The notes under the pieces are model-generated. The model was given only the letters and a program-made list of their open reading frames with translations, did not search any database and was not told where the DNA came from. Below, in pieces: positions 1 to 5,321 of a DNA stretch of 5,321 bases (the stretch's first letter is position 1; every line of letters begins with the position of its first letter). The DNA is taken from assembly GCA_025774205.1 (NCBI GenBank), contig JALGWK010000343.1:1-5321 (forward strand), in the 5' to 3' direction. The DNA is from a bacterium (GTDB taxonomy: Bacteria > Blakebacterota > Blakebacteria > Blakebacterales > Blakebacteraceae). The translations under genes were made by a program, and so were the position numbers.

Positions 1-1076
1 ATGAATATCCGGACCAGGTCGGGATGGTATTCGGTCCCGGCTCCCGCCACCAGGGTTTCAAAGATCTTCTCAATCGGTATCGGATCCTGGAAGGGGCGCT
101 GCGTGCGCATGGCATCAAAGGTATCGCAGATATGGGTGATCTGCGCGAGCCGGTGGGGCCTGCGTTTGTAATGCAGCGAGGGGTAACCCTCGCCGTTCCA
201 TTTGACATGGTGCTCATAGGCCGCGATTGCGGCCAGCTCCAGATTCTCGGGGGAACGCAGCAGGATACGGGCACCCTCTTCCGGATGCTGCCTGATTATC
301 TCCCATTCCTTTTCATCCAGAGGCCCGGGTTTGTTGAGGATCTCGTAAGGGATGGTGACCTTGCCCATATCGTGCAGCAGGGCAGCTTCACCGATGACAC
401 GGATCTGCTGTTTGGGCAGGCGGAAGTATTCCCCCACCGCCATTGCCAGCATCGAGGTGTTCATCGAATGCACCGTGCTGTACTGATCCACATCCTTCAA
501 TGACACCAGCGGCACCATCAAATTCCGGCCGTAGCGCATGGCGGTGGAGAGAGTCTGCACAACTGCCCGTGCCAGGGCAGTTGATACACGCCCCTTGATG
601 GCCACCTCCTCATGGAGGAAATCGACCTTTTCGACTTCTCCCTTCAGATCGAAGGGAAGGTCCTGATCCTTTCCCTCATCGCCCTGTTCAAGGCTCCCGA
701 AACGGATATGCGGGAACCGGGTCGGGTCCGCAACCAGCGTATCGGTGGAGCGGCTCAGCTGGTTTGAGGTCTCTTCGAGGAAGCTCCGGAATTCCTCCCG
801 GGTCAGACCGGTACTGATCTCGATCCGCTGGATGCGGCGCCTGGTCAGGTGGCGACTCAGGGGCAGATTCCGTAGTTCGGAGAGCGGGCGATCCTGGTAG
901 ATGACATCGTCTTCGAGGAAGGTGAATACCGGCTCGGGATCGGAAGCAAGGAGAGTAGTCAGAGTCTCCGTGGCCTCGTCCAGTGCGCTCTCGCGGGCAG
1001 GGTGTCCGGCACGGTAGAGCGAGAAAGAGGTAATAGCTCGCGCCAGCCTGGTCAGGAATTCAACCGGGGGATTCAT
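1..1076 (-). CDS. HD-GYP domain phosphohydrolase with N-terminal GHP-motif domain (3' end cut by window)
   Basis: Probable cytoplasmic cyclic-di-GMP phosphodiesterase. I translated 358 codons from ATG at 1076 to the window edge with no stop. Residues 1-105, perhaps to about 135, form a mixed helical/strand domain with LYRAGHP at 20-26 that resembles the N-terminus of the upstream gene product. A helical connector (about 150-195) leads to the HD-GYP domain (about 197-358). Putative metal ligands are all visible: H203, H235-D236 in LLHDMGK, H264 in RQHPEEG, H289-H290 and D318 in CDTFDAM, with GEGYP ending at 299. Two positions differ from the usual consensus: HHV instead of HHE, and RPFQ (327-330) instead of RPYK. 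The final EYHPDLVRIF matches the usual domain end, so probably only a few tens of residues are missing. No signal peptide or membrane segment is seen. The start overlaps the preceding stop as ATGA and has no good Shine-Dalgarno, implying translational coupling. HD-GYP assignment is firm; substrate is inferred from the family. Confidence 0.93.
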   Translation of the reverse strand, partial: MNPPVEFLTRLARAITSFSLYRAGHPARESALDEATETLTTLLASDPEPVFTFLEDDVIYQDRPLSELRNLPLSRHLTRRRIQRIEISTGLTREEFRSFLEETSNQLSRSTDTLVADPTRFPHIRFGSLEQGDEGKDQDLPFDLKGEVEKVDFLHEEVAIKGRVSTALARAVVQTLSTAMRYGRNLMVPLVSLKDVDQYSTVHSMNTSMLAMAVGEYFRLPKQQIRVIGEAALLHDMGKVTIPYEILNKPGPLDEKEWEIIRQHPEEGARILLRSPENLELAAIAAYEHHVKWNGEGYPSLHYKRRPHRLAQITHICDTFDAMRTQRPFQDPIPIEKIFETLVAGAGTEYHPDLVRIF

Positions 1077-3256
1077 GATCCGGCACCTGTGGAGCGGGCG
1101 ACAGTCTGGATCTGCGGATCAGGTGATCGCAAAGCGCTCTGCACAGCCTTGATCGCGCGCGGTTCCTGTTGCCAGTGGTTGGCGAGAGCCGACAGGGCGG
1201 CCATCATGGTCGCCGATTTCGGCGCCAGCGAATTCAGGATTATCCACTTGCGCTGCCAGACCAGACCCAGGAGCACCTCAAATGCCTCGAGGTCACCTGA
1301 TGAGGCCAGGGTACGGATACAGGCGGTCTTTATTTTTATCAGAGAGTCGGGATCCTGGATCATCGCGATCAGATACGGGATCAGCTCTTTCGGGCACCGG
1401 CCCTGTATGCTGTTGAGAGCCTGTTCGATCACCAGCGAGTCGCCATCGTTCAGGGCCTGGTGAAGAGCCTGACTCCGGAACGCATCCCGGCCCAGCGCGA
1501 TCGCGAAGGCCTCTCGTCTGACGCGGAGATCGGTATGGTCGAGGAATTCCCACGGTGTGAAGTCGTCGGGCAGGACCTCCAGTCGGCCCAGCAGATGGAG
1601 CAGGTTGCGCAGGTGGTACCACGGTCCGTCATCCAGCCGCTCCACGATCGCCGGTCCTATGTCCGGGCCGAGTCGTTCCAGCCTTTCCAGAAGGCTGATG
1701 CGCTCCATGCGCGAATCCGAATCAAGCATGCGGTCGAGCATCGGTCCCGCCGCGTCGTCCCAGATGCGCGTAATGACACGGTCGAGAGTAGAGTAGTCGA
1801 CCGGCTGGTAATCCAGAACATTGACGACGGTATCTTTCCGGTCGACCCGGTGCCAGAGGTTCTCAGTTGCCGCAACCCGTGCGGGCGCGTTCTCCAGAAG
1901 GTCCATCAAACTTCCTGTTTGACCGCTGGAGATCATGTCCGCGGTGGCTTTCAGGGTCGGTGGAGCCGCCTCGTCGATCTCGAGACTGATCTGCAGGATC
2001 CGTTCGGCGTCCCGCTCCTCAGACCATTTCAGATCCGCCGTCAGCTGCTCGGCCGTCCGGTTGAACTTGCGCAGGTCTTCATCGTAGTCCGTCGGATTCG
2101 GATTCTCGACATTCCAGCCCGCTCCCAGGCGCTGGAGGAGAGCCACCAGCTGTTGATCATCCCCTGAGCTGACAGGTGTCTCCGTGTCCTCGGTGAACAG
2201 GGCGAGTTTGGTCATCAGACGCAGCAGCGCGCTTGAAGCACCATCGTTTGATCCGGAATCGGCAGCTTCCATGATCTCACGAACGGTACCCTCGATGGAC
2301 CCTTCAGCGGCGCTCTGCCGGTACGATTCCGGCAGTTGTTTGACAAGGCTTCGCATGGTTTGCGGCGTCATCCCCACGATCATCTGAGAGATCCCCTCGT
2401 GGAGAGCGGCCGGATCGGTCGGATCGGAATTGTGCAGAACTTCCTTCAGCTTCGTCAGGTTGAGACCTGAGAGCTGTTGCCGGGCCTGATGCAGGACTTC
2501 GTCGGTCCCTGGGGAACCGGTGACAACGCCGGCTTCTTCCGACGATCCGGCGAAAACACCGGCTTCTTCCGACGATCCGGCGGAAACGCCGGCTTCATCC
2601 GACGATCCGGCGGAAACGCCGGCTTCTTCCGACGTTCCGGCTGAAACGCCGGCTCCTTCCGACGATCCGGCTGAAACGCCGGCTCCTTCCGACGATCCGG
2701 CTGAAACGCCGGCTTCTTCCGACGTTCCGGCTGAAACGCCGGCTTCTCCCGACGATCCGGATGAAACGCCGGCTTCTCCCGACAATCCGCCTGAAACGCC
2801 GGCTACTTTCGACGCTCCGGTAAAAACAGTTCCTTCTTCTGTGTCTCCTTCGGCGATGCTGAGGGAACTGAAGGGGATTACCTCGATCGTGATGTGAGCC
2901 GCCCCCAGGGATTCGGCCTGATTGCCCGGTTTGACCGCGATGGCGGCTATGAAATCCTGGAGTTCATTCGGTTCGACCCCCTGCCGGAATGTCAGTCCGT
3001 AAATAAGATGCCGGTAGAGCCGACGGGAGAGGGAGTTGAACAGGGTGTTATCGGGACTGGTGCTGGTCTCCCCGATGGTGAGGTGGTCCCGTGAGACATC
3101 GATGGTAAACGTGGGAGAAGAAGCCAGCACCGCCGCCAGGTGCTCCCGGGTTGAAGCCACTATCTCGGCGACCACCGGGTGACCGGGAGGGTACATTCCA
3201 ACTCGCTGAGCGGCACGAGCCAGCTCAATGAGGAATGTTTCTGTTTCAGGCGGCAT
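1073..3256 (-). CDS. HEAT-repeat protein with N-terminal GHP-motif domain and decapeptide-repeat linker
   Basis: A 727-residue protein of unknown function, likely a cytoplasmic scaffold; no signal peptide or membrane helix is visible. Residues 1-135 form a domain with MYPPGHP at 21-27, followed by helices and strands, that matches the N-terminus of the HD-GYP protein encoded next. Residues 146-245 are ten tandem decapeptides of the type AGSSEEAGVS, a flexible Gly/Ser/Ala/Glu linker. Residues about 250-495 are mostly helical, interrupted by an acidic low-complexity stretch near 360. Residues about 499-720 contain successive helix pairs typical of HEAT repeats, for example around LLERLERLG, LRVRREAFAIALGRD and LIKIKTACIRTLAS. 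I chose ATG 3256: it follows GGGAG at 3265-3261, and the alignment with the HD-GYP N-terminus begins here. A longer reading from TTG 3334 is rejected because that TTG lies in the -35 box. It is the first gene of a two-gene operon. HEAT assignment is from helix pattern only. Confidence 0.88.
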   Translation of the reverse strand: MPPETETFLIELARAAQRVGMYPPGHPVVAEIVASTREHLAAVLASSPTFTIDVSRDHLTIGETSTSPDNTLFNSLSRRLYRHLIYGLTFRQGVEPNELQDFIAAIAVKPGNQAESLGAAHITIEVIPFSSLSIAEGDTEEGTVFTGASKVAGVSGGLSGEAGVSSGSSGEAGVSAGTSEEAGVSAGSSEGAGVSAGSSEGAGVSAGTSEEAGVSAGSSDEAGVSAGSSEEAGVFAGSSEEAGVVTGSPGTDEVLHQARQQLSGLNLTKLKEVLHNSDPTDPAALHEGISQMIVGMTPQTMRSLVKQLPESYRQSAAEGSIEGTVREIMEAADSGSNDGASSALLRLMTKLALFTEDTETPVSSGDDQQLVALLQRLGAGWNVENPNPTDYDEDLRKFNRTAEQLTADLKWSEERDAERILQISLEIDEAAPPTLKATADMISSGQTGSLMDLLENAPARVAATENLWHRVDRKDTVVNVLDYQPVDYSTLDRVITRIWDDAAGPMLDRMLDSDSRMERISLLERLERLGPDIGPAIVERLDDGPWYHLRNLLHLLGRLEVLPDDFTPWEFLDHTDLRVRREAFAIALGRDAFRSQALHQALNDGDSLVIEQALNSIQGRCPKELIPYLIAMIQDPDSLIKIKTACIRTLASSGDLEAFEVLLGLVWQRKWIILNSLAPKSATMMAALSALANHWQQEPRAIKAVQSALRSPDPQIQTVARSTGAGS
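2521..2820 (-). repeat. Ten tandem 30-bp units encoding decapeptide linker
   Basis: Ten contiguous units of exactly 30 bp with no spacers, each carrying a variant of GCCGGC(T/A)TCTTCCGACGA on the plus strand. In the coding (minus) frame the units read as decapeptides, in order: TGASKVAGVS, GGLSGEAGVS, SGSSGEAGVS, AGTSEEAGVS, AGSSEGAGVS twice, AGTSEEAGVS, AGSSDEAGVS, AGSSEEAGVF, AGSSEEAGVV. Units 2641-2670 and 2671-2700 are identical at the DNA level, while those near 2820 are the most diverged, the usual signature of growth by unequal crossover or slippage. Because the period is a multiple of three, copy-number changes keep the reading frame and only alter linker length. Confidence 0.95.
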
Positions 3257-3304: not shown

Positions 3305-3334
3305 ATTATACCATAAACGAAGGAGTTCTGGCAA
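3305..3334 (-). promoter_or_regulatory. Sigma70-type promoter of the HEAT/HD-GYP operon
   Basis: On the minus strand TTGCCA (3334-3329, one mismatch to TTGACA) is followed by an 18-bp spacer and a perfect TATAAT (3310-3305). TGG directly before the -10 gives an extended -10 (TGnTATAAT). Transcription should start near 3298, giving a leader of about 42 bases before ATG 3256. This is the AT-richest short stretch in the window and sits in the intergenic gap, at the right place and orientation for the two-gene operon. Functional activity is inferred. Confidence 0.8.
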
Positions 3335-3372: not shown

Positions 3373-5321
3373 TCAGAAGATGAAGGTAGAGGCGTATTTC
3401 AGCATGATCGTGCGATCGCTGTGGTAGGGCAGGTTCGGGATCTCCCGCAGGCGGTCGGTGTTGATCCCCTCGTTGTAGACCAGATAGAAGTCGGTCCCCT
3501 CGCGTGGATTGAACCTGATACGGATATTACCCGTGACCGTGTCAACGGCGCCGTTGTACTGGATGAACGCGAAGGCCGAGAAGCTCGTGGTGAGGGTCAC
3601 CTCTGCCTTCAGTCTGCTTATCAGGGCAAGGTAGTCCTGATCCCGGTCGGGGAATGACACCCGGTTGACCTGGAAGAAACCGTTGAAGTTCGCGAACCGT
3701 CGTAGAACTCCCCGGCCTGAAGCACCAGTCCGGCATCGATCAATCGCCCTCCCCCCGGCTCGTAGATCGCTTCAACGCCCAGGAAGGTGTGGTCTCCGAC
3801 CGGTACGACCGCGTCGTTATCCAGTTCGAACTCTTCAGTCAGACCCTCCCGATACGCCTTCAGCGCCACGACGATGGTAGTGAGGTTGTTGAAGGTGACG
3901 GCGCTGGCGACTTCGAACTCCGCCGACTCGACCGTTCGGTCGGCGTTGCGCAGGAAGGTGAATCCGCCAACCGACACCCGGATCGAACGCCTCCCCCGCC
4001 CCGGAGACACTCAGGCTGTAGAAAAACCGGTCGATCGTCCGCCGTTCGAGATTGATCCTGAACCGGGAGGGATCGAAAGAGCCCGCACGATTCGACGCTC
4101 CCTCCGCGAATGACTGCGCCCAGACCATGGTCAGGTAGTCCTCCCCCCGCAGCCGGAAGATGCCGTCGAGGCCGTAGAGGAAGTTCCATGATCCATCCCG
4201 GCCGTACCGGCTGGTGACGATCGCCCCGATGTTGGAGTTGGGGTTGAAGACCTGGCGGCGGAGACGCACCACCCCGAAGTTCTCTGAGGGAAGCTCCCCC
4301 CTCGGATCCTCTTCGGTCTGCATATCGATCACCCCGACATCCCAGTCTCCGACCCGGCCCACCATCCTGACTCCCCCCAGAATGGGGATCTGGCTACCCT
4401 CGTGGAGACCGATCCGGCGGCTGTGGAAGAGGCGGTTGGGGCCCCCGAGAGAGACCTCGAACACATTCGAGCGCTCCTGGAAGAAACGGCGTTTCTCGGG
4501 GAAGAAGAGGGAGAAGCGGGTCAGGTTCACCTGCTGGTCATCCGCCTCTACCTGGGCGAAGTCGGTATTGTAGGTCAGATCGAGGGTGAGGTTGCTGGTC
4601 AGGCTGTACTTGAAGTCGAGACCGATCTCGCCGATCCGGTTCTCCTCCCTGACGTACTCGGTCTCGGCATCGTTCAGGTCGTTGCTGAATCCCGCGCCGC
4701 CCAGCAGATATGGCGTGAGATAGGAGGAGCGGCGGCTCTCGATCCCCTCGAAGAGAATGTCGGCGCCGCGGGAAACCTTGAAGCCGCTGAGTCCGCCCCA
4801 CGAGGCCTCGAAATCGGGGAAGATGTCGACCTCGCCCCGGCGGGCACTGTAGCGCCAGGTGATGAAGCCCATCACGACCCGTCCGTCGTCAACCTGGAAC
4901 CGCAGGCTGGTGAAGGGGATCCGGAATTCCGCGTACCACCCCCGATCGTCCCGGACCACTGCCACGTCCCAGAAGGTATCCCAACTGTCGTTGAAGGGCA
5001 TCGCGTCGGGAGTGGTCGGCTGGGCGTCGTTGGAGATGGTCATGTCGAGCCGGATGCCGCTCGGCGTGGTGAAGAAGGCCAGGCCATTCTCGTTGTCATT
5101 GAAGCTGTCGAGAACAATCCCGACGTAGTCGTTGTTCGGGGAAAGCATGTCCCGTTTGAGCGACGGTCCGAGGATGTCGGCCTGGTCGTCGAGCATCATG
5201 CCGGCCACGTAGAGGAATTCGTCGTCGTAAGCGATCCTGATCTCGGTCTCCCTCACCAGGGGGTGGCCGTAATCGGGCAGCTGCTGGACGAGAGGCAGTG
5301 GTGCCACGCCCTGCCAGGCCG
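3373..5321 (-). pseudogene. DUF5916 outer-membrane beta-barrel protein with CBM9-like domain, 5'-partial, two frameshifts
   Basis: Outer-membrane barrel protein of the CBM9/DUF5916 family; substrate unknown. The reading frame is open to the right edge (AWQGVAPLPL, matching the family's LDEPAWQ start), so GTG 5307 is internal, and the signal peptide plus first residues lie outside. Window residues 1 to about 175 form the CBM9-like beta-sandwich (IRIAYDDEFLYVAG, WYAEFRIPFTSLRF). The DUF5916 hallmark lies at about 250-287: YNTDFAQVEADDQQVNLTRF then FFPEKRRFF, followed by LFHSRRIGL. After FDPGVG (near 3973) the frame moves by one base; the middle segment, GFTFLRNADRT to GEFYDG, reads in the new frame. 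Near 3697 it returns to the first frame and continues FANFNGFFQVNRVSFP to the terminal RTIMLKYASTFIF and stop TGA 3375-3373. A C-terminal Phe on a last beta-strand is typical of outer-membrane proteins. All three segments keep barrel-like sense, so the damage is recent or a sequencing artefact. As read, translation stops at 3835. Confidence 0.85.

Follow-up and report, generated by a model that had tools for sequence, protein, structure and literature searches.

The DNA analyzed here (the window) is the complete contig JALGWK010000343.1, 5,321 bases of a fragmented bacterial genome (3.09 Mb in 527 contigs), and it carries two genes whose products both open with a domain of ~130 residues to which we give the working name N-domain. 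The first gene, P0001 (1073..3256, minus strand), encodes 727 amino acids (aa) comprising an N-domain (residues ~5-129; 2870..3244, minus strand), a linker of decapeptide repeats and C-terminal HEAT repeats (HEAT_2, residues 596-668; 1253..1471, minus strand; Pfam E-value (E) = 2.8e-12, 47.2 bits, cut-off 27.7). The second, P0002 (3..1076, minus strand), encodes an N-domain (residues ~4-130; 687..1067, minus strand) followed by an HD-GYP domain (HD_5, residues 193-353; 18..500, minus strand; Pfam 72.2 bits, cut-off 27.2), and 358 aa of its product are seen, the C-terminus being lost at the contig end. Both N-domains were delimited by BLASTP, profile-profile comparison and AlphaFold2. An earlier reading of the bare sequence (the original prediction) had described an ATGA overlap between the two genes, and the ends of the open reading frames (ORFs) bear this out, as the TGA stop of P0001 and the ATG start of P0002 share positions 1073..1076 on the minus strand. 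The single promoter it proposed for the pair is plausible: a sigma-70-like site (TTGCCA-18-TATAAT with a TG extension, 11/12 consensus match; 3305..3334, minus strand) lies 49 nt before the first ATG of P0001, but one such match in the window is what shuffled sequence gives by chance (1.0 expected).

The near-gapless likeness of the two N-termini noted in the original prediction is well above chance. BLASTP aligned them at 28% identity over 138 aa (E = 1e-6), and profile-profile comparison, which had been named as a test, found strong similarity between the HEAT-type profile (71 homologues) and the HD-type profile (63 homologues) over 140 columns (E = 1.6e-19, probability 99%). The motifs it had listed stand where it placed them in P0001 and P0002, respectively: FLIELARA (8-15) and FLTRLARA (7-14), YPPGHP (22-27) and YRAGHP (21-26), VLAS and LLAS, P48 and P47, GVEPNELQDFI and GLTREEFRSFL, and a later HI in both. 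Among N-domains generally, the Y and P of the YPxxHP segment are near-invariant. Fold comparison, also named as a test, gave the same answer. AlphaFold2 models built from the window sequences and homologues from related loci, with a mean predicted local distance difference test (pLDDT) score of 92.0 and 92.6, are both predicted to be alpha-alpha-beta-beta-alpha-beta-alpha-beta, with the elements in identical order (P0001/P0002): helix 3-19/3-20, helix 27-46/26-45, strand 49-54/50-53, strand 59-61/58-60, helix 71-82/72-79, strand 85-91/84-87, helix 96-107/93-108 and strand 122-126/124-127.

The components of the two proteins come from known superfamilies (HEAT and HD_5), and the N-domain in these copies is matched by no Pfam, NCBIfam or PHROGs model. 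No credible family in these three collections covered the N-domain region of the window proteins, in line with the original prediction, which knew of no named family, and the 71 and 63 homologues searched against the family libraries returned HEAT, HD and stray families only, none for the N-domain. Comparison of the N-domain models with the PDB gave no convincing match by Foldseek (best E 0.36 and 0.17), and the best alignments by VIA-align (Z 4.3 and 4.5) were partial; the missing match does not prove that the modeled fold is new. Foldseek hits to PelD and GAF domains (E 0.17-0.7, template-modeling score ~0.2) were disregarded, and a 41-residue hit to the designed protein Octarellin V.1 in a sequence search of the PDB was taken as spurious.

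A search profile made from 31 N-domains detected the domain in 104 of 386 sampled bacterial genomes. The 150 matches listed lie in 84 genomes, which contain at least 41 adjacent same-strand pairs in 37 genomes. Reading the DNA around the matches listed gave 183 N-domain ORFs, 76 of them with an HD-GYP domain, in a sample that was picked by N-domain matches and in which some genomes are related. For 71/76 of these N-HD-GYP ORFs, an N-domain ORF lacking HD-GYP, of the type that joins an N-domain to HEAT repeats (N-HEAT), lay directly upstream on the same strand, and the gene order in pairs was invariant, N-HEAT first and N-HD-GYP second. The remaining five comprise two with a HEAT partner cut by the contig end, one whose HEAT partner is split by an in-frame TGA, one starting at a contig end and one with a masked upstream region; where the upstream side was readable, none of the 76 ORFs was seen without an N-HEAT partner. 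At E ≤ 0.001, HEAT_2 matched 68/71 upstream partners and HD_5 matched 58/63 downstream partners. An exact 4-base overlap is possible in 26/71 pairs and a downstream start no more than 30 nt from the upstream stop in 63/71; translational coupling, as predicted from these start and stop positions, is kept across the pairs.

Recurrence of the adjacency had been named as a further test, and the pair was found in many phyla. Among named records, pairs occur in, for example, Deltaproteobacteria, a Desulfuromonadaceae bacterium, Acidobacteria, Actinobacteria and an Armatimonadetes bacterium; the scan of these records used a narrower alignment, which biases the taxa toward the LYPPxHP subgroup. In several Acidobacteria the genes form HEAT-HD-HEAT-HD arrays. 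A second pair, paralogous to the one described here, lies on another contig of the window genome, and both pairs are present in a sister genome. Past the pair itself, the genomic context held no consistent third gene, most clusters being generic kinases or shadow ORFs, and a plasmid search with one HD-type protein returned only ordinary-looking HD-GYP matches, none covering its N-terminus. A 24,576-residue open frame around one homologue was discarded as an artefact of a 72,000-base N run (L174-L177, G063:C95:64001-136000). Individual loci showed further variation: at L119:6413-8884 (minus strand) the HEAT partner gene is broken by one in-frame TGA, which may reflect a pseudogene, a sequencing error or recoding; at L052:4803-5765 (minus strand) a remnant of the HD-GYP partner (HHIHFDGSGGYP) is fused out of frame before a calcineurin-like phosphoesterase; and at L042 and L169 genes judged from sequence to be RuvX/YqgF-like and MltG-like lie downstream of the HD-GYP gene, possibly a lineage-specific neighborhood.

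We used a tree of 142 N-domains, all from pairs, to examine the history of the two copies. The HEAT and HD labels change 3 times on this tree, compared to a mean of 47.8 when shuffled, and the well-supported branches allow a single change. Identity between the two N-domains of a pair (mean 19%) is similar to the averages inside either type. Since the labels separate on the tree and within-pair identity is close to within-type identity, the duplication is old and the copies have traveled together, which supports a single ancient duplication followed by long co-inheritance of both copies. The tandem duplication described in the original prediction therefore stands insofar as one domain was duplicated onto two outputs, but a recent tandem event in this genome was rejected, because within-pair identity does not exceed within-type identity and the labels separate. 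Distance matrices of the partners are correlated (Mantel r = 0.62; 0.34 when restricted to divergent pairs), a correlation that co-inheritance alone can explain.

We compared the HD-GYP half with PmGH, in which E185, H189, H221, D222, H250, H276, H277 and D305 are metal ligands (PMC4159591). P0002 has H203, HD at 235-236, H264, H289-H290, GYP at 297-299 and D318 as ligand and motif residues. Across the 63 aligned members, the columns of PmGH H189, H221, D222, H250, H276, H277 and D305 are kept in 57-63, K225 in 51, D308 in 55 and R314 in 53. The E185 position is occupied by Y in 50/63 members and in P0002, where the E/D of the trinuclear (E/D-T-G) subgroup is not found; this Y therefore suggests a metal site of the binuclear type. 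Set against the HD-GYP consensus HHExxDGxGYPxxxxxxxI (PMC4159591), P0002 reads HHVKWNGEGYP, with HHV in place of HHE. The signature E occurs in 0/63 members and is also missing from 24 readable named loci, whereas GYP is kept in most and the E is present in 30/30 ordinary HD-GYPs from the sampled genomes. The N-domain-linked HD-GYPs also fall on one side of a branch separating them from 26 ordinary ones, with 99% support in the Shimodaira-Hasegawa-like approximate likelihood-ratio test (SH-aLRT). Because of this altered signature and branch, the N-domain-linked HD-GYP is, by sequence, a separate, monophyletic and divergent sister subfamily. Matches returned by PADLOC were set aside as generic Cas3-HD resemblance.

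The universal loss of the signature E could mean that the HD-GYP half is dead or nearly so and instead works as a receptor for cyclic dinucleotides, relaying its state to the HEAT protein. HD-GYPs that are inactive, or that serve as receptors by binding cyclic di-GMP (c-di-GMP), provide precedents (DvhD, PMC13090378; Bd1817, PMC4159591). We consider such a receptor role improbable, as the E is not among the metal ligands (PMC4159591) and the ligand columns, K225 and R314 are largely kept. The subfamily is probably catalytically active, judging from these residues, so that the c-di-GMP breakdown foreseen in the original prediction keeps the support of the conserved metal ligands but has to contend with a signature altered in every member. 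The position equivalent to the guanine-contacting K317 of PmGH is Q in P0002 and in 21/63 members and R in 17. This Q would fit an enzyme that, like PmxA with its selectivity glutamine near the active site, acts on a substrate other than c-di-GMP, such as 3',3'-cyclic GMP-AMP (3',3'-cGAMP), an option that could be combined with the model proposed below; given that the column is mixed and not confirmed as the PmxA position, we give such a different substrate little chance of being the right one.

The HEAT half adds features of its own. The consensus of the N-HEAT family contains a W-x-V-V-R-N-like HEAT motif. The linker of P0001 is encoded by 10 copies of a 30-bp repeat (2517..2820, minus strand; GVSAGSSEEA-like decapeptides), and this array is local, as the sister genome encodes a 66% identical protein that lacks it; a plus-strand ORF at 2520-2897 is the antisense shadow of the array. 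Two proteins of ~1,200 to 1,580 residues are GGDEF-AAA_16-N-HEAT fusions (L049:4325-7951 and L153:1147-5877), and L121:3967-7590 is probably a third, from its length and N-domain position. Because of this fusion to GGDEF-AAA proteins, N-HEAT would be tied to messenger synthesis as well. Other carriers include an N-N-HEAT protein with a double N-domain (L095) and a protein with DUF4388 followed by an N-domain, in which no HEAT or HD domain was detected (L125:5203-6783). An extra N-terminal region of ~240 residues, with no Pfam match in the two proteins scanned (L118 and L132), is present in N-HEAT proteins of ~890-930 aa at L118, L132, L134 and L143 and probably at L123, L140 and L144. The occurrence of N-HEAT alone, when N-HD-GYP was never seen without N-HEAT wherever its upstream side was readable, suggests from gene content that the HEAT protein is primary and that the phosphodiesterase depends on it.

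Computation shows the homology, the common order of fold elements, the gene order, the coupling and the single duplication. Building on these, we propose a local signaling complex, for which we infer binding, catalysis, substrate and target. Paralogous N-domains would join the two proteins in a heterodimer or mixed oligomer, and the HEAT protein would serve as a scaffold or regulator that ties a dedicated phosphodiesterase to a target, near which the HD-GYP domain would hydrolyze or sense a cyclic dinucleotide, either c-di-GMP or 3',3'-cGAMP. We hold this pairing of a HEAT scaffold with its own phosphodiesterase at roughly even odds (probability about 0.5).

Several observations weigh against this proposal. 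At some sufficiently long loci, N-HEAT genes stand beside guaA, uvrB or jag without an N-HD-GYP partner, so HEAT function does not always depend on an adjacent enzyme. GGDEF is present in 26/26 N-domain genomes but also in 63/72 others (p = 0.11), and its co-occurrence is therefore not discriminating. With the signature E absent from every member and the K317-equivalent position variable, activity and substrate are uncertain. Finally, a position N-terminal to HD-GYP is the usual place of sensor domains. The N-domain could accordingly be an input sensor by which each protein independently detects one common cue, a small molecule or a protein. The HD-GYP protein would then shift the messenger level and the HEAT protein its binding partners, and the shared operon would serve their co-expression, with no binding between the two. 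Such a sensor would also fit the near-invariant Y and P and the further outputs that carry the N-domain (GGDEF-AAA-HEAT, DUF4388 and double N-domains). A shared sensor would not, however, require the fixed order and overlap of the genes found in 71/76 cases, and the N-domain matched no known ligand-binding fold, which is weak evidence; we regard a pure sensor as rather unlikely.

A neighboring gene gives a hint, though not evidence, of function. The ortholog of the pair in the sister genome is convergent with a gene for a MshEN-T2SSE (GspE/PilB-like) ATPase (L039:3091-5019, minus strand), a family that includes known c-di-GMP binders. MshEN is commoner per Mb in N-domain genomes (p = 0.008), but this value is not corrected for phylogeny and was not relied on. 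We found no description of the HEAT/HD-GYP pair in the open-access papers searched. Taken more broadly, and with somewhat less than even confidence, the pair may represent an undescribed module that crosses phyla, in which a paralogous pairing domain without a clear solved match joins a HEAT scaffold to a private HD-GYP subfamily, sometimes with a diguanylate cyclase in the same chain, to form a locally confined second-messenger switch. If the pair works as proposed, domains of a signaling module still lacking a family name are present in about one quarter of the bacterial genomes sampled, and every HD-GYP member has its interaction partner encoded by the adjacent gene. Which enzyme serves which target is an old question in cyclic-dinucleotide networks, and a pair with built-in partner identity would make specificity directly testable. 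In addition, the altered signature is a simple marker that sets these HD-GYPs apart as a subfamily, for which no substrate should be taken for granted.

Upstream of the pair, the window carries a gene for a probable DUF5916/CBM9-like outer-membrane protein (3373-5319, minus strand), which is spread over three frames (3835-5319, 3621-4010 and 3373-3660); the apparent frameshifts indicate either assembly errors or a decayed gene.

Among known systems, the HD-GYP phosphodiesterases RpfG, PmGH and PA4108 have in common with P0002 an HD_5 match above the cut-off, the HD dyad, the metal-ligand H and D residues and GYP, but the P0002 family differs in the missing signature E, its own clade (99%), the N-domain and the HEAT partner gene. 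DUF3391-HD-GYP proteins likewise place a domain of ~130 residues before HD-GYP, although only 1/63 members touches DUF3391 (E = 3e-4) and P0002 has no match to it. For trigger phosphodiesterases, we know of no domain common to enzyme and partner. They resemble the proposed complex in how they work only, as a phosphodiesterase acting as an effector that controls a bound partner locally (PMC5052742); in the present pair, binding is a prediction. The PmxA-type cGAMP-specific HD-GYP (PMC8177086) is also divergent and may share a Q at a base-contact position, but there is no evidence that the P0002 family belongs to this type. Bacterial HEAT_2 or PBS-lyase-type HEAT proteins have C-terminal HEAT repeats above the Pfam cut-off, as does P0001, and to these the P0001 family adds the N-domain, the W-x-V-V-R-N-like motif and a dedicated HD-GYP neighbor.

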